A program made the translations under genes and the position numbers. Source: Erysipelotrichaceae bacterium NK3D112 (GTDB lineage Bacteria; Bacillota_I; Bacilli_A; Erysipelotrichales; Erysipelotrichaceae). From it: 64,000 nt of DNA. Shown in pieces: positions 18,016 through 28,065 of the stretch. A model generated the notes under the pieces. That model was given only the letters and a program-made list of their open reading frames with translations. It was not told where the DNA came from and did no database searches. Each line of letters begins with the position of its first letter. The stretch's first letter is position 1. Location: NCBI GenBank assembly GCA_000701725.1, contig JNJQ01000010.1:1-64000 (forward strand). Reading direction: 5' to 3'.

Positions 18016-19758
18016 TCAGAACGGAAGACTGTCATCATCGTCCATCCAGTCAGTGGACTGCTCGTCATCTTCATCATATGAGTCATGCAGACGATGCGCC
18101 AGCTCAAGCAAATGAATGATCAGAGGTTTTTCAATCATAATAATCCCATCATCATCCGGGTATGCATCCAAAATAACACCGCCGATTTCTTCCTCTTCCG
18201 CTGCCATTTTCAAAAGCTTCTTCGCCGATCCTTTATAAAGCGTGACACCATCCTGAAGTCTGCGGTCATTTGTTGAAAACAGTCCCAGGTAGTTTTTCTG
18301 TGTGTCCTGATCTTTTACCATCCGCATCTGCACTCTGCCGTTGTGTGAACCGCCGGAATCGCCTGCGAACCAGATCATTTCATCCCAGGCCGCAAGCAGT
18401 CCGAGTGCCGTGACAACATCAGTAAAATGATCATCTGTCGGATCAAGTTTGTATTTTGTCACCGTCATATGCAGATGGCGGATCAAAAAATCAAAGTCCT
18501 CATCCTCCTCGCCGAACAGACTGAGCTCCTCTTCCAGTTCCTGTTCATCCTTCTCATTTTCCGCATCAATCGTTTTTCTCAGTTTTTTTGCAAGAGCTTT
18601 CATTCCGGCATATTCAGCGAATTCCATTGCAGCGTAATAGAAAGGATAGTTATCATCATTGATTTCAGGCTCCTTTTTAAGGACTGCCTCCATAAACTGC
18701 TTTCCGTCTTTCTTTTTACGGTTGTAACGGTACGCATCGAGAAGCAGTCTTGCGGCTTCGTAGTTTGCAGGATTCTCTTCATAGACCTGTTTTGTATATG
18801 CAAGCATTTCATCGCTGCGGCCAAGTCCGTACAGCGCTTCGGCTTTGCCGCGGATAAGTTCATTCATCGTTTCCGGATCATTGTCAAACAGCTGTGCAAA
18901 TTCATCCGTGATTCTCAGAAGTTCTTCGTATCGATTTTCATCAAGCAGCGCATCAACCAGATCTTCAGCGAAACCGTATCCGTCAAAAGCGGGATCCTGA
19001 TCTTCCAGTTCTTCAAGTGTATCAGGAAGTCTGTTTTCCGCTTTCAGATTTTCACATATTCTTTTGAATTCCTCAAAAGCGCGGATCCACAGGGAAGAGC
19101 TTTCTCCTTCCGAGAGCCATGAAATGTCATCAGCTCTGTCATAAAGGCTGTTGAATTCCTTCCAGATACTGCCGGAATCATCATCTGTTTCATCCCGGGA
19201 AACAACCGCGGACAGATAATCGGTCTCCTCTTCCGGATCAATTGTATCGAATGTATTGCCGGCCTTTTCCAGTTCAAGATTCCAGGGCATATAAAAATCT
19301 CTTTCCTCATCATCTTCAGAAAGATCCATGGGCATTTCACCGTTTAACAATGCCCAATATCCGCCATGGTTATCTTCCCAGATGCCGCGTCCCTTGCCAT
19401 CCAGAACGATGGCAGGCAGATCAGAATCAAATTCTTTTTCCGCTTTATAAATGCGGATTTCAAATTCCCAGTCATCACCATAATCGTATATAAAACGATA
19501 TGTGTCACCGGGTTCCAGAATATTGTACTCACGCATCGGCAAGCCGGGACTGTCATCCCATTCCTCAAATTCTTCTCTGCTTTCAGTCCAGCATATCTGA
19601 CCCTTGCGGAATTCATAGAGATGTCCTTCATTCATACGGAAGGTTTCACGGATGATCTGAGCAAACTCAGAAAGATTGAGATTGTGCGGAACATAAAGGA
19701 CACGGTAAAGACGCTTTTTATCGTCCAGTCCGCTGATTCTGACTTTTCTGTATAGCAT
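18016..19758 (-). CDS. PRiA4_ORF3 domain / TPR-like / SseB-like multidomain protein
   Basis: 580 residues, very acidic. Residues 1-190 resemble the plasmid pRiA4b ORF-3 (IS1096 TnpR-like) domain: KVRISGLDDKKRLYRVL, YDYGDDWEFEIRI, LDGKGRGIWEDNHGGYW. The middle (about 210-410) is helical with TPR-like pairs (ALYGLGRSDEMLAYTKQVYEENPANYEAARLLLDAYR). The C-terminal 140 residues resemble an SseB N-terminal domain (LFSTNDRRLQDG, GGVILDAYPDDDGIIM). No catalytic motif or export signal is visible. It is a single gene facing away from its neighbours. The domain assignments are by eye; the combination is unusual. Confidence 0.65.
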   Translation of the reverse strand: MLYRKVRISGLDDKKRLYRVLYVPHNLNLSEFAQIIRETFRMNEGHLYEFRKGQICWTESREEFEEWDDSPGLPMREYNILEPGDTYRFIYDYGDDWEFEIRIYKAEKEFDSDLPAIVLDGKGRGIWEDNHGGYWALLNGEMPMDLSEDDEERDFYMPWNLELEKAGNTFDTIDPEEETDYLSAVVSRDETDDDSGSIWKEFNSLYDRADDISWLSEGESSSLWIRAFEEFKRICENLKAENRLPDTLEELEDQDPAFDGYGFAEDLVDALLDENRYEELLRITDEFAQLFDNDPETMNELIRGKAEALYGLGRSDEMLAYTKQVYEENPANYEAARLLLDAYRYNRKKKDGKQFMEAVLKKEPEINDDNYPFYYAAMEFAEYAGMKALAKKLRKTIDAENEKDEQELEEELSLFGEEDEDFDFLIRHLHMTVTKYKLDPTDDHFTDVVTALGLLAAWDEMIWFAGDSGGSHNGRVQMRMVKDQDTQKNYLGLFSTNDRRLQDGVTLYKGSAKKLLKMAAEEEEIGGVILDAYPDDDGIIMIEKPLIIHLLELAHRLHDSYDEDDEQSTDWMDDDDSLPF

Positions 19759-21151: not shown

Positions 21152-22003
21152 ATGAAAATTGCAGTTACTTATGATAACGGAAATGTGTTCCAGCATTTCG
21201 GAAGAACTGAAAGTTTTAAATTATTCAATATTGAAAACAACGAAATCATCTCCTCTGAGATCATTTCAAACGGCGGTGTCGGCCATGAAGCCCTGGCAGG
21301 ACTTCTCGCAGAGCATGACATTGACGTGCTGATCTGCGGCGGTCTTGGCGCCGGTGCCCAGGCTGCTCTTGCACAGGCAGACATTGAAGTATGCGCAGGT
21401 GCAGAGGGCGATGTCGATGAGGCAGTCATTTCCTGGCTCAAAGGCGAGCTCAAGGGATCCGATGCGCTCTGTGATCATCATGATCATGAACATGAGGAAG
21501 GTCATGAATGCGGCGGATGCCATGATGAGGAAGGATGCGGCGGATGCAGCGGATGTCATTCCGCTCCTCAGATTGACGGAAAGAATGTCGGCCGCAAGTG
21601 CACCGTTCATTACAGAGGTACCCTCAATGACGGAAGCCAGTTTGATTCCTCCTATGACCGTGGACAGCCGCTGGAATTCGTATGCGGTGCGGGCATGATG
21701 ATCTTCGGCTTCGATAAAGCAGTCGCAGACATGGAACCCGGTGAAATCAAAGATGTTCATCTGATGCCGGAAGAAGCTTACGGATATGTCAATCCGGCAG
21801 CTGTCATGGAGATTGAAATCGCCGCCCTGCCCGGCTCCGAAAACCTGGAAGTCGGCCAGAGAGTAATGGTTTCCGACCAGATGGGCAGACGTTTCCCGGT
21901 CAAGGTCACAGCCAAGGATGACAAAAACATCACTCTTGATGCCAACCACGAAATGGCCGGCAAGGAACTCAACTTCACCATTGAACTGGTCAGCGTTGAA
22001 TAA
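21152..22003 (+). CDS. NifX/NifB-like domain fused to SlyD-type peptidyl-prolyl isomerase
   Basis: 283 residues. Residues 1-100 match the dinitrogenase FeMo-cofactor biosynthesis (NifX/NifB C-terminal) fold: MKIAVTYDNGNVFQHFGRTE, LICGGLGAGAQAAL. Residues 107-136 are a His/Cys-rich metal-binding linker. Residues 140-283 are an FKBP isomerase of the SlyD type, with VHYRGTLNDGSQFDSS, GFDKAVADMEPGE and the inserted chaperone flap. In E. coli SlyD a His/Cys tail delivers nickel to hydrogenase; here the metal-rich part sits between the two domains. A role in metal-cluster or metallochaperone work is an inference. The start ATG at 21152 follows a GAGGTATAAGC leader with a modest ribosome binding site. 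Confidence 0.85.
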   Translation: MKIAVTYDNGNVFQHFGRTESFKLFNIENNEIISSEIISNGGVGHEALAGLLAEHDIDVLICGGLGAGAQAALAQADIEVCAGAEGDVDEAVISWLKGELKGSDALCDHHDHEHEEGHECGGCHDEEGCGGCSGCHSAPQIDGKNVGRKCTVHYRGTLNDGSQFDSSYDRGQPLEFVCGAGMMIFGFDKAVADMEPGEIKDVHLMPEEAYGYVNPAAVMEIEIAALPGSENLEVGQRVMVSDQMGRRFPVKVTAKDDKNITLDANHEMAGKELNFTIELVSVE

Positions 22004-22133: not shown

Positions 22134-22166
22134 CGTGTTATATTGGTTCCGTAAAGGAGTGTGGAT

Positions 22167-24110
22167 ATGGACACCAACATCAGAAACAACGCAGCTTTCA
22201 CCCCCGGCAGAATTGGAAACATGGAATTGAAGAACCGTCTGATTGTGCCGGCAATGGTCACAAACACATGCACACCGGATGGCATGCCGACAGAACGTTT
22301 CATTCAGTATCATGAGGAAAAAGCCAAAGGCGGATGGGGCCTGATCATCACCGAGGATTATGCCGTCACCCCTTACGCGGGCGGCTTCCGTGATCTTCCG
22401 GGTTTATGGAGCGATGAGCAGATTGCGGCGCATACCGCTTTTGTCGAAAGAATTCATCAGCTCGGCGCAAAGATTTGCTGCCAGATTTATCATGCGGGCA
22501 GACAGACCAACAGTAAAATCAACGGCGTGCAGTGCATGGCGCCTTCCCCTTACAAAGATCCCCCTTCATTTGAAAATCCGAAGGAAATGACGGAAGAGGA
22601 CATTCACGATGTCATCCGTGCATATGCCGATGCGGCACTCAGAGCGAAAAAGTGCGGCTTTGACGCAGTTGAGGTTCATGGCGCCCATGGCTATCTGATC
22701 AACCAGTTCAACTCACCCTATTCCAACAAGAGATGCGATGAGTACGGCGGAACCACCTGGAACAGAACCAGATTCGGAAGAGAGGTCATCGAGGCTGTCC
22801 GTGAGGCGGTCGGCGAGGATTATCCCGTTCTCTTCAAACTGACTGTCAATGAATATGTGGCCGGCGGTCTTTCCATCAATGAAGGACGTGAAGTGGCAAG
22901 AATTTATGCAAAGGAGCCGATTGATGCGATCACCATCTCCCAGGGTGTCAACGCAACCGAATGGGCAGTTATTCCCCCTGCACATATTTCCGTGATCGGT
23001 TTCATCCAGAATGTGAAGGCATGCCGCGATGTCATTAAGGATATCCCGGTCATCGCCATCGGCAGAATCGTGAACTTCGATGTCGCCAACAATATCATCG
23101 AAGACGGCACCTGCGACTTTGTGGCTATGGGAAGAGCCTCCCTGGCTGATCCGCTGGCACCGAAGAAATACCTCGAAGGAAACAGAGACGATATTCAGCT
23201 TTGCATCGGCTGTGTACAGGGATGCCTCGGCAATCTGCGCAAGAACATTCCGATCCAGTGTCTGGTCAATCCGAGAACCGTCAAAGAATACTGCACCGAC
23301 CTCACTCCTGCGCAGACACCGAAGAAAGTCACTGTTATCGGCGGCGGTATTGCCGGATGCGAAGCTGCCATGACAGCAGCGATGAAGGGCCATCATGTCA
23401 CCCTTTACGAAGCTTCGGATCATCTGGGCGGCCAGTGGAAACTTGCGGCGGTGCCCACTGCCAAGCAGGATTTCACAACCCTGCTCATCTGGCTGAAGCG
23501 CCAGCTTGCAAAATACAATGTCACCATTCATCTGAATACTCCTTATTCTGCCGAAAAAGCGGAAGAGGAAAAACCGGATGTGATCGTCTATGCGTGCGGC
23601 AGCACTGAGCGTATGCTCAAGGGCAAAGGCCTTGAAGGTGAGAATATCTTCAAAGCACAGGAGATTCTCAGCGGCAGAAAGAATCTTACCGGCAATAAGG
23701 CTGTCGTCATCGGCGGCGGTTCCGTCGGTGTTGAAACAGCTGTTCATATGGCCCAGGACTTCAAGGATGTGACCATTCTGGAAGTCAGGGACAGAATTTC
23801 CGCGGACGGTGAATTCTCCAACAACCACTTCCTGTTCAAAGCCATGGATGAATATAAGGTTGATTCCTATGCAAAAGCTTTCTTTGAAAGCTATGAGAAC
23901 GGAGTTGTGACATTCAGACAGAATGATGAAATCAAAAAGATTTACGATGTGACAGATATCGTCATCAGCATCGGTTCCGTTCCCAACACCGCGCTTGCGG
24001 ACGAACTGAAAGCCAAAGGTTTCGATGTCAGGATTACCGGTGATTCCGAAAAGGTGAAACCCGGACTGAAGAATATCGAAGAAGCATATTTCCTCGGACT
24101 TTCCCTCTGA
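22167..24110 (+). CDS. Old Yellow Enzyme family 4Fe-4S/FMN/FAD enoate reductase-like oxidoreductase
   Basis: About 647 residues, with the three-part layout of 2,4-dienoyl-CoA reductase, enoate reductase and BaiCD-type enzymes. The FMN barrel (1-340) has HGAHGYLINQFNSPYSNKR. The cluster CIGCVQGCLGNLRKNIPIQC binds 4Fe-4S. FAD and NAD(P) Rossmann domains follow (VIGGGIAGCEAA, VIGGGSVGVETAV). It should reduce an activated C=C bond; fatty acid, bile acid or aromatic substrates are all possible. The frame extends to a GTG at 22161, but that is one base from the AAAGGAG site, so the ATG at 22167 is used. Controlled by a palindromic operator and probably by the downstream TetR. Confidence 0.87.
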   Translation: MDTNIRNNAAFTPGRIGNMELKNRLIVPAMVTNTCTPDGMPTERFIQYHEEKAKGGWGLIITEDYAVTPYAGGFRDLPGLWSDEQIAAHTAFVERIHQLGAKICCQIYHAGRQTNSKINGVQCMAPSPYKDPPSFENPKEMTEEDIHDVIRAYADAALRAKKCGFDAVEVHGAHGYLINQFNSPYSNKRCDEYGGTTWNRTRFGREVIEAVREAVGEDYPVLFKLTVNEYVAGGLSINEGREVARIYAKEPIDAITISQGVNATEWAVIPPAHISVIGFIQNVKACRDVIKDIPVIAIGRIVNFDVANNIIEDGTCDFVAMGRASLADPLAPKKYLEGNRDDIQLCIGCVQGCLGNLRKNIPIQCLVNPRTVKEYCTDLTPAQTPKKVTVIGGGIAGCEAAMTAAMKGHHVTLYEASDHLGGQWKLAAVPTAKQDFTTLLIWLKRQLAKYNVTIHLNTPYSAEKAEEEKPDVIVYACGSTERMLKGKGLEGENIFKAQEILSGRKNLTGNKAVVIGGGSVGVETAVHMAQDFKDVTILEVRDRISADGEFSNNHFLFKAMDEYKVDSYAKAFFESYENGVVTFRQNDEIKKIYDVTDIVISIGSVPNTALADELKAKGFDVRITGDSEKVKPGLKNIEEAYFLGLSL

Positions 24111-24193: not shown

Positions 24194-24784
24194 ATGTACG
24201 AAGATGAGCGACTGACTGAAAGCGGAAAGAAAACGCGTGAACTGATCTTCAGAACAGCGGTTGAAGTTCTGAAGAAAGAAGGCTATGACAAGCTGACCAT
24301 CCGGAAAATCTGCGCTGCCTCCGGTACCAGCAACGGCAGTTTCTATCATTTTTTCAAAAACAAGGATGAGCTTCTCGCCTATTATTACAACATTTCCGCC
24401 GACCGGTTCATCGAGGAGCACATTGATGAAATGAACAATGCGAATCTGGCTGAGCAGATGATGATCACATACAGATACTACATCCGCTATTCAGCTGATT
24501 ACGGTGTTGATTTCTGCATGAACTTCTTCAACGCGAAAAACCGCGCCATCGATCCGGCTTATATGTACAACGCTTTCTACGAGATTTCCCGGAAATATCT
24601 TCACCAGAAAGAAAGCGAACTCAAAGAAGGAAACGATGCGGACACCGTCGCCAAGGAGCTTTGCATTCTGGCCAAGGGCATCATCTTTGACTGGGCAACC
24701 GAGCGGGGATCCTACGATATCACCGTGACGGCTGACCGGATGTTCGCGGCTTATCTTGCCGGTGTCGTCAAACAGACTGACTGA
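24194..24784 (+). CDS. TetR family regulator
   Basis: 196 residues. The N-terminal helix-turn-helix reads LTIRKICAASGTSNGSFYHFFKNKDELL, and a helical ligand domain follows. The ATG at 24194 follows CAGGAGGATCTGATGC, a good ribosome binding site. It sits directly downstream of the Old Yellow Enzyme gene, whose promoter carries a long inverted repeat, so it is the likely repressor of that gene. The effector is unknown. Confidence 0.8.
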   Translation: MYEDERLTESGKKTRELIFRTAVEVLKKEGYDKLTIRKICAASGTSNGSFYHFFKNKDELLAYYYNISADRFIEEHIDEMNNANLAEQMMITYRYYIRYSADYGVDFCMNFFNAKNRAIDPAYMYNAFYEISRKYLHQKESELKEGNDADTVAKELCILAKGIIFDWATERGSYDITVTADRMFAAYLAGVVKQTD

Positions 24785-24879: not shown

Positions 24880-26361
24880 TCAATATCCCGGCACCGCATC
24901 CGACGTCAGATTCGTCTGTTCCCTGGACTCATCAATGAGCTGTCCGAGAATGTCGAGGAACTTGTCGACTTCCTCTTCGGTGTTGTAAATACCGAAGCTG
25001 ACACGGATCATACCCGGTGTCTTCATGTCGATGCAGTTTTCAAATGTCTTTGCCTCCTCTTCGGAGATACCCATCAGACGCCATACATAAGGATGTGCGC
25101 AGAAGGCGCCGCGTCTTGTGGCAACACCCTTATCAGCCAGGTTGAGGGCAATGATATAGGAGTTGATATCAGTGAAGTTGAAGGAGACAACACCCACTCT
25201 GTCATCGAGGTTTTCATAATCGCCGTAAATAATGACATTGTCGAATTTCTTCAGGCCTTCGATCAATTTGGTATTGAGCTTCTTTTCATGTTCGGCAATC
25301 GCATCAAAGCCGATCTGTTCCAGCACATCCATGGCCTTTGACATACCGACCACACCCGCGTAGTTGGGAGAGCCCGCCTCATAGGACTCAGGTGAGAATT
25401 TATAGGAAACAGAACTGTCGGTAACGATTCTGACAATACCGCCGCCATAGAATTCCGGCATATGCTTGTCAAGAATATCCCACGGTCCGATCACGGCGCC
25501 GCCGCCGTACGGAGAATACATCTTATGCGCGGAGAAGACGAAGAAGTCAATGTCCTCCTCCGGTGTTTCACCCTTCATGGAGAACTGTCTGTGTGCGACA
25601 ATCTGCGCACCGTCGACAATGATCATCGCGCCATGCGCATGAGCCATCTTTGCGACTCTGTGCACATCGGTGATATGGCCGGTGACGTTGGATGCAGCTG
25701 TCACACAGACATATTTGACCTTGCCTTCATTTTCTGTCAGAAGTCTTTCGATATCATCATAGATGACACGTCCCTGTTCATCGACCTCGGCATAGATCAC
25801 ATTGCAGCGCTCACGCCAGGGCAGATCGTTGGCATGGTGTTCCATGCGGGTTGCCAGAACCAGATCGTCCTCGCTCTCAACCAGCGCGCTTGCCAGTTTG
25901 TTGAGACCGTCGGTTGTGGAGTTGACATAGAAACATGTGTTGATATCCGGATCCGCATTGACAAACTTCATGACCCGCTGACGTGTTTCCATATAAATAT
26001 CGGTGGAATGATTGGATTTGGCGGAAAAGCCGCGTCCGATCGATCCGTACATTTTCATCTCCTGCTCAACCGCATCCGCAACCGGCTGCATCGGCGGTGT
26101 TGTGGCCGCATTGTCAAAGTTGATTAACGGCGCGCTTGTGCCGTCAGCCAGTTCCACCGGCTCATTGACGCCGACCACATAATCGCGGATATTGTCAATT
26201 GTATAAACGGTTTCCTCTTCCGGCGTTTCCGGTGTTTCGCTTGATTCCGGTTCGGGTGTCGGCTCTGTGCCGCCTGAAGGCTGTGAACAGCCGATGCTCA
26301 TGGTGCAGCAAAGAGCCAGAACGGGCAATGCACGCAGAAATTTTATTGATGCTTTGTTCAT
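24880..26361 (-). CDS. lipoprotein-anchored class V aminotransferase / cysteine desulfurase homologue
   Basis: 493 residues. The N-terminus is a lipoprotein signal with lipobox SIGC (Cys 25), then a Pro/Glu/Thr-rich spacer to about residue 50, then a complete fold-type I PLP enzyme. Visible catalytic parts are NFDNAATTPP, MEHHANDLPW (His stacking on PLP), IVDGAQIVAH (Asp and Gln), and FSAHKMYSPYGGG with Lys 280 as the PLP lysine. RRGAFCAHPYV has a Cys where SufS/CsdA desulfurases have theirs. The family is normally cytoplasmic, so export of the whole enzyme is odd. It may release sulfide or act on selenocysteine or cysteine-like compounds at the cell surface. The sequence shows the anchor and a complete active site; the substrate is unknown. 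Confidence 0.85.
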   Translation of the reverse strand: MNKASIKFLRALPVLALCCTMSIGCSQPSGGTEPTPEPESSETPETPEEETVYTIDNIRDYVVGVNEPVELADGTSAPLINFDNAATTPPMQPVADAVEQEMKMYGSIGRGFSAKSNHSTDIYMETRQRVMKFVNADPDINTCFYVNSTTDGLNKLASALVESEDDLVLATRMEHHANDLPWRERCNVIYAEVDEQGRVIYDDIERLLTENEGKVKYVCVTAASNVTGHITDVHRVAKMAHAHGAMIIVDGAQIVAHRQFSMKGETPEEDIDFFVFSAHKMYSPYGGGAVIGPWDILDKHMPEFYGGGIVRIVTDSSVSYKFSPESYEAGSPNYAGVVGMSKAMDVLEQIGFDAIAEHEKKLNTKLIEGLKKFDNVIIYGDYENLDDRVGVVSFNFTDINSYIIALNLADKGVATRRGAFCAHPYVWRLMGISEEEAKTFENCIDMKTPGMIRVSFGIYNTEEEVDKFLDILGQLIDESREQTNLTSDAVPGY

Positions 26362-26388
26362 TAAAAATCCCTCCTTTTCGTTTTATGA

Positions 26389-26418
26389 CAGCGGCGCACG
26401 GAAAAACATCCGCCGCTG
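26389..26418. promoter_or_regulatory. GC-rich hairpin in the leader of the aminotransferase gene
   Basis: CAGCGGCG/CGCCGCTG, a perfect eight-base stem with a 14-base loop, about 30 bases upstream of the start codon. It has no T-run, so it is not a standard terminator. It may be an RNA regulatory stem or an operator. Confidence 0.4.
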
Positions 26419-26537: not shown

Positions 26538-26573
26538 GAAAAAAGCATATCCGCTTCTGACAGATATGCTTAA
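26538..26573 (-). terminator. terminator of the hydrogenase gene
   Basis: AAGCATAT/ATATGCTT hairpin followed by six T on the minus strand. Confidence 0.85.
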
Positions 26574-26580
26574 TGAGAGC

Positions 26581-28065
26581 CTACTTTCCCTTCGGATGCA
26601 TTTCTCCTCTGACCATGGAGAAGGCGTCCATCGGATAGTTTTCAAGGTTTTCAAGAATACCGCGCTTGTCCGCATTGCCGAGGAGCTTGACTCTTGCACG
26701 CTTGACTTCCGCTTCCGCCGCATGCTTGGACGGTCCGCCGACACATCCGCCTTCGCAGATCATCGCTTCGATGAAGTCCTCAGGCAGTCTGCCCATGGAC
26801 AGCAGCTTGACGCCGACCACACAGTCTTTTCCGCCGGTACACTTGCGCAGCTTGACATTGGCTGTATCCTGACCGCGTTCCTTCATGCATTCAAGAACCG
26901 CCGCTGCAACACCGCCGCTGCTGGAGAAGCCCTTTCCGTATACGGAGGCTTCTTGATAATTCTCTTCAACCGGTTCAAGTTCGATATCCTTCGACTTGAG
27001 CAGGGATGTCATCTCACCGAATGTCAGAACATAGTCCGCATTGCCTTCAATGCCCATTTCCTGGGATTCGCTCTTTTTCGCGATGCACGGGCCGATGAAT
27101 ACGGTCACGCAGTCCGGATGCTGGGACTTGAGGAATCTTGAGATGGCGCACATCGGGGAAACGATGGAGGACATATTCTTTTCGAAGACATCGGGATAAT
27201 GTTTCATGAGAAGGTTGATAAATGCCGGGCAGCATGATGTTGTCATCTTGCGGCCTTCCTCAAGCGCTTCCGCCCATTCAGCCGATTCATAAGCTGCAGT
27301 CATATCGCCGCCAAGACCGACTTCAACCATGTCCTTGAATCCGACCTTTTTCAGTGCGGCGCGGATGGAAGCCATGGAGATGTTTTCGCCATACTGGCCT
27401 TCAATGGCCGGTGCGCACATCGCATAGACTTCTTTTCCGGCTTTGATCGCGCGGATGACATCCAGAACATGAACCTTGGAACCGATCGCTCCGAACGGAC
27501 AGGAGTGAATGCACTGTCCGCAGCGGATGCACTTTTCCTCATCGATGACACAGATGCCGTATTCATCATAGGAAATCGCATCAACCGGGCACGGTCTCTT
27601 GCACGGACGGATCAGGTGGGCAATGGCGCCATACGGGCAGGCGTTGGCACACATGCCGCATTCCTTACATTTGTTCGGATCAATCTTTGCTCTGTTGTCG
27701 CCCATCGTAATCGCCCCGAAACGGCATGAATTCATACATGCCTTGCCAAGGCACAGACGGCAGTTGTCAGTGACGGTGTAAGAGGAAAGAGGGCATTCCT
27801 CACAGGCCGGCTCAATGACCTGGATGATATTGTTCGGGTGTTTGACAGGAGATGCATCCATATTGGAACCAAGACGCATTCTCCATCTGAGAATCTCCCT
27901 TTCCTTATAGACGCAGCATCTCCACGTCGCATGAGGACCGGGTGAAATTTCGTAAGCCAGCGCTTCCTTGTTTTCGTCGGTCAGCTCGTCCTTCCATTCC
28001 AGACGGGCCAGACCTTCCACAACGCGGTGTTTCAGCGCAACAGCGCCTTCATCATTTCTGATCAT
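26581..28065 (-). CDS. group B-like monomeric [FeFe] hydrogenase
   Basis: 494 residues. The N-terminal half has several cysteine clusters for 4Fe-4S centres, including CKECGMCANACPYGAI (about 133-147) and CIRCGQCIHSCPFGAI (about 179-194). The C-terminal half carries the H-cluster motifs in the form typical of group B enzymes: TTSCCPAF (275-282), IGPCIAKKSE (about 324-333) and AMICEGGCVGGP (434-445). All four H-cluster cysteines are present. It should make or oxidise H2 with ferredoxin as partner. The maturases HydE, HydF and HydG are not in the window. Single gene with its own terminator. Sensory versus fermentative roles cannot be told apart here. Confidence 0.85.
   Translation of the reverse strand: MIRNDEGAVALKHRVVEGLARLEWKDELTDENKEALAYEISPGPHATWRCCVYKEREILRWRMRLGSNMDASPVKHPNNIIQVIEPACEECPLSSYTVTDNCRLCLGKACMNSCRFGAITMGDNRAKIDPNKCKECGMCANACPYGAIAHLIRPCKRPCPVDAISYDEYGICVIDEEKCIRCGQCIHSCPFGAIGSKVHVLDVIRAIKAGKEVYAMCAPAIEGQYGENISMASIRAALKKVGFKDMVEVGLGGDMTAAYESAEWAEALEEGRKMTTSCCPAFINLLMKHYPDVFEKNMSSIVSPMCAISRFLKSQHPDCVTVFIGPCIAKKSESQEMGIEGNADYVLTFGEMTSLLKSKDIELEPVEENYQEASVYGKGFSSSGGVAAAVLECMKERGQDTANVKLRKCTGGKDCVVGVKLLSMGRLPEDFIEAMICEGGCVGGPSKHAAEAEVKRARVKLLGNADKRGILENLENYPMDAFSMVRGEMHPKGK

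Follow-up and report, generated by a model that had tools for sequence, protein, structure and literature searches.

A SufS-like pyridoxal phosphate enzyme with a predicted export signal and interchangeable surface anchors in gut Bacillota

The window that we analyzed is a stretch of 64,000 nucleotides from Erysipelotrichaceae bacterium NK3D112 (contig JNJQ01000010.1). Positions 24880..26361 of its minus strand hold a gene for a 493-amino-acid, predicted exported SufS-like (type II cysteine-desulfurase-like) PLP enzyme, with an ATG start and a strong Shine-Dalgarno site, AAGGAGGG, ahead of it at 26369..26376 (minus strand). Its upstream neighbor encodes a monomeric [FeFe] hydrogenase (26581-28065, minus strand; TIGR04105, 556 bits), and a terminator-like hairpin 3' of the hydrogenase gene separates the two (26543..26571, minus strand). 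The downstream neighbor is a TetR regulator gene on the opposite strand (24194-24784). Because of this upstream hairpin and the opposite-strand TetR gene, the SufS-like gene is probably transcribed alone, and it is probably a monocistronic orphan. No neighbor or partner gene was conserved across 80 homologous loci, no sulfur-acceptor partner gene was found near the SufS-like gene, and no suf or isc genes occur among the adjacent window genes that were scanned. A reading based on an operon or partner gene was therefore rejected, as none is conserved. The TetR gene adjoins a plus-strand gene (22161-24110) for a BaiCD/bilirubin-reductase-like FMN/FAD flavoenzyme that scores under all equivalog cutoffs. 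Also in this part of the window are an unusual fusion protein in which a His/Cys-rich linker joins a dinitrogenase FeMo-co-type domain (PF02579) to an FKBP-type isomerase domain (21152-22003, plus strand) and a protein whose N-terminal domain is PRiA4_ORF3-like and which matches TPR weakly (18016-19758, minus strand).

The initial annotation had drawn attention to a GC hairpin in the leader of the gene. We examined this hairpin (26389..26418, minus strand) by folding, by comparison with the leaders of homologues, and with Rfam. It exists, with an 8-bp GC stem, and the region's fold has a z score of -2.1, with 6 of 200 shuffles folding equally well, but it adds nothing to the interpretation of the gene. 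Apart from the near-identical (97%-identical) locus L007, the leaders of other homologues lack it, and there was no Rfam match anywhere in the window. Since it is neither conserved nor matched in Rfam, the hairpin is probably incidental, and a regulatory RNA was rejected on the same grounds.

The N terminus of the protein, MNKASIKFLRALPVLALCCTMSIGC, has the features of a lipoprotein. Hydropathy and pattern searches place a signal peptide at residues 1 to 24 (26290..26361, minus strand), with Lys/Arg in the n-region, a hydrophobic core, and no twin arginine. The lipobox SIGC (residues 22 to 25; 26287..26298, minus strand), within the sequence MSIGC, fits a PROSITE-type pattern and has Cys25 as the acceptor. 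It is followed by an acidic spacer rich in Pro, Glu, and Thr (residues 26 to 52; 26206..26286, minus strand) and by the conserved junction YTIDNIRDYVVG (residues 53 to 64; 26170..26205, minus strand), which is where relatives swap one anchor module for another. A lipoprotein signal and spacer of this kind ahead of a PLP domain had been proposed from the initial reading of the DNA, and both are seen. SIGC is a weak variant, having Ser at -3; the lipobox is canonical in clade mates, and relatives have TAGC, AAGC, IAGC, LTAC, or LSAC at this position. As background, the lipobox pattern occurred within the first 45 amino acids in 21 of 319 neighboring long open reading frames; it occurred in nearly all of the homologues classed as lipoproteins and in 0 of 25 unextended homologues. 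The spacer varies freely in length and sequence among relatives. The genome encodes signal peptidase II (LspA) and has no TatC, which is also missing from 23 of 28 related genomes; in a genome lacking TatC, export of the protein would be by Sec. Going by its export signal, the protein appears to be displayed on the outer surface.

The catalytic domain (residues 80 to 468; 24958..26124, minus strand) matches aminotransferase class V (PF00266) with 281 bits against a curated cutoff of 21.5, placing it within the class V superfamily. The initial annotation had described a complete PLP enzyme with an active-site Lys, a stacking His, and a desulfurase-like Cys. Alignment with Bacillus subtilis SufS bears this out: Lys280, the PLP Schiff-base lysine (25522..25524), corresponds to SufS K224; His175, which stacks on PLP (25837..25839), to H121; and Cys421 (25099..25101), invariant in exported and cytosolic relatives, to the persulfide Cys C361 (all on the minus strand). 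In the same alignment, Arg453 (25003..25005, minus strand) corresponds to the substrate carboxylate Arg R376, Arg416 to R356, and Asp250 to the Asp at PLP N1, so that the SufS-type residue set of PLP Lys, stacking His, Asp, persulfide Cys, and carboxylate Arg is complete. His175, Lys280, Cys421, Arg416, and Arg453 are invariant over the relatives, as are about 90 residues in all, including the PLP pocket, in exported and cytosolic forms alike. Because the exported clade shows no decay of the active site, its members have probably retained catalysis. Built from 54 sequences of the family, an AlphaFold2 model (mean pLDDT, 92.8; pTM, 0.92) found SufS-type desulfurases as its best matches (Foldseek E value, about 1e-35). 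It superimposes on B. subtilis SufS (5xt5) with a Z score of 45.2 over 393 aligned residues at 1.9 Å, and every one of the closest experimental structures is a SufS-type desulfurase.

The protein thus shares its fold, PLP Lys, stacking His, persulfide-type Cys, and carboxylate Arg with the SufS/CsdB type II cysteine desulfurases and selenocysteine lyases (TIGR01979; B. subtilis 5xt5, Escherichia coli 1jf9). However, it is only about 30 to 34% identical to them, has an export signal, and has no suf neighbors. Its score against the NCBIfam SufS model (TIGR01979) is 299 bits, under the cutoff of 475, and it also lies under the NCBIfam cutoffs for CsdA, NifS, and IscS. Between the Cys and the carboxylate Arg, it has about 17 residues more than SufS does, and His55, which in E. 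coli numbering takes part in persulfide handling, is replaced by Gly. The His55 replacement and the longer loop after the Cys mean that the reaction may differ from that of SufS. By alignment and profile score, the protein is a relative of SufS and not SufS itself. Two further cysteines mark the exported forms: Cys186 (25804..25806, minus strand) is fixed in the exported clade and present in 12% of cytosolic relatives, and Cys443 (25033..25035, minus strand), which lies in the extended loop, is present in 96% of the clade and at the same column in 12% of cytosolic relatives, some of which have a Cys elsewhere in the loop. These two residues could form a disulfide or provide a second sulfur-carrying Cys. 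The exported catalytic cores are also more acidic than the others (-5.8 versus -1.3 net charge per 100 residues, in a plain comparison that ignores kinship), a difference absent from the neighboring genes of exported versus other loci. The genome also carries a SufS-like (L002) and a NifS-like (L004) class V desulfurase gene, so the exported enzyme is not encoded by its sole gene of this type.

We collected the 80 homologous loci from species genomes, read their N termini from the DNA, and built a tree on the catalytic cores only. The window protein and 52 loci form one clade; support is 100% for the window and 51 loci and 94% when the basal L054 is included. An export signal is present in all members but two: L039 is ambiguous, and for L021 the contig breaks off before the 5' end. 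The anchors are of several types: a lipobox, a signal-peptidase-I peptide, a type I dockerin, or a Big_2 domain. The lipobox, whose conservation the initial annotation had put forward as a check by phylogeny, is kept in all Erysipelotrichaceae relatives and in many Clostridia. Dockerin-like modules are found in L027, L033, L040, L050, and L051; Dockerin_1 is above the Pfam cutoff in L027, L033, and L051 and just below it in L040, in a scan of these four. Big_2 is above the Pfam cutoff in L049 and L053, and L034 has a long N-terminal region with no Pfam match. Sequences upstream of the conserved junction are unrelated among relatives, and the downstream part is conserved. Surface anchoring, claimed earlier from the window alone, is strongly supported by a lipobox kept in relatives and by its exchange for dockerin or Big_2 modules. 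Relatives outside the clade, from Peptostreptococcaceae and termite-gut Clostridia (a habitat taken from isolate names), begin right at the domain, with no extension. On the tree, exported versus nonexported requires 2 changes and anchor type about 9. L066 is a lipoprotein, and the termite-gut L073 is of the signal-peptidase-I type, which suggests further export events in other lineages, although 2 changes are enough for the tree by itself.

The clade is mostly one of ruminant-gut Bacillota, and for 38 of its 52 loci the record title mentions a ruminant source or rumen project. The gene is patchily distributed: of 35 other genomes in the window's genus, 2 carry it, and across the phylum it occurs in 1 genome out of 392, the window's own. 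E. coli genomes gave no match to the protein. This patchiness, together with the lack of shared neighbors, suggests horizontal spread of the exported enzyme gene. A plasmid or phage origin was considered and rejected, as there were only distant matches, the best at about 37% identity. A 37%-identical homologue on a Methylobacterium aquaticum plasmid (L091, 9055-10383) sits in a copper/heavy-metal efflux cluster beside a P-type ATPase; a link to sulfide and metals is possible at this one locus.

Among known systems, the periplasmic PLP enzymes PvdN and PtaA of Pseudomonas likewise work outside the cytoplasm, as proposed for the window protein, and they depend on Tat, since they bind PLP ahead of transport (PMC6206403). 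The PvdN profile model matches the window protein weakly (28 bits). In contrast to these Tat substrates, which are exported folded with PLP, the window protein has neither a twin-arginine signal nor a Tat translocase in its genome, would use Sec and lipidation, and has no siderophore cluster. The cargo cysteine desulfurase of Family 2A encapsulins (NF041166, 8kg1) also has a long, unrelated N-terminal region for targeting ahead of a SufS-like catalytic domain, but that cargo resides inside a cytosolic protein shell, whereas the N terminus here is an export signal and anchor. The dockerin-bearing relatives resemble cellulosomal proteins of ruminal clostridia, and cohesin domains were above cutoff in 5 of 5 dockerin-bearing genomes versus 1 of 14 control genomes; the window copy differs in being a lipoprotein. 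In the open-access literature, we found no paper combining a dockerin with "aminotransferase class V," no Sec-exported desulfurase with the SufS fold, and no published description of an exported SufS-like family.

What can be read from sequence is an export signal, its clade-wide conservation, anchor swapping, an intact active site, a SufS fold, and the lack of TatC. Could the N terminus nevertheless have been mis-called, with an internal start giving a cytosolic protein? The weak SIGC lipobox would allow this, but it is very improbable and largely refuted by the strong Shine-Dalgarno site at the ATG and by clade mates with signal peptides, several of which are replaced by full extracellular modules. 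Homologues starting near residue 50 with a conserved internal start, which the initial annotation had named as evidence against export, were looked for, and none was found in the exported clade. It is also improbable that the protein is a nonenzymatic, moonlighting surface protein that binds or adheres with a retained fold. The dockerin, Big_2, and lipoprotein anchors are those typically seen on surface binding proteins, and the gene is an orphan; nevertheless, the roughly 90 invariant residues that both forms retain, PLP pocket included, should have been lost from a pure adhesin.

A weightier alternative, though still an unlikely one, is an exported PLP enzyme with other chemistry (compare PvdN, PtaA, and UstD). 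It would carry out beta-elimination, decarboxylation, or transamination on an extracellular substrate, either an amino acid or a metabolite that bears one, and the conserved Cys would serve otherwise. Scores under the cutoff for every desulfurase equivalog and the long loop after the Cys are consistent with it, and the same superfamily includes UstD, FGM3, and the exported PvdN (PMC6206403). Against it, Cys421 and both carboxylate-binding Arg residues are kept throughout the family, and the closest folds all belong to SufS-type desulfurases. The invariant Cys, Lys, His, and carboxylate Arg favor desulfuration of cysteine, cystine, or selenocysteine. We consider it slightly better than an even bet that the protein is a Sec-exported, lipidated SufS-like enzyme that is loaded with PLP outside the cell and desulfurates these substrates. 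In this mechanism, Sec would export an enzyme derived from a cytosolic family, Cys25 would be lipidated, a disordered spacer would tether the catalytic domain outside the cell, and folding and, presumably, PLP binding would take place there. The enzyme would then act on a free amino acid bearing an alpha-carboxylate, for which cysteine, cystine, or selenocysteine is the likeliest candidate. The sulfur of this substrate would pass to Cys421 as a persulfide and then be released as sulfide, leaving alanine, and this sulfide may act as an external sulfur supply. Our best guess for the product in the reducing rumen is sulfide.

Cysteine desulfurases are cytosolic enzymes, and the exported PLP enzymes for which we found documentation leave via Tat with PLP already loaded. 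The case for export is stronger than the initial annotation had stated; the function that we propose is a hypothesis. Somewhat short of an even chance is the broader reading of a gut-Bacillota, mostly ruminant, family of Sec-exported desulfurase-like PLP enzymes that fold and acquire PLP outside the cell, use interchangeable anchors including cellulosomal dockerins, and supply sulfide or persulfide to the gut lumen. If true, a Sec-exported relative would open to testing the question of whether PLP enzymes with the SufS fold can assemble outside the cell, the dockerin forms would point to a noncarbohydrate enzyme on cellulosomes, and the family would hint at an unrecognized extracellular step of sulfur (or selenium) turnover in the rumen.
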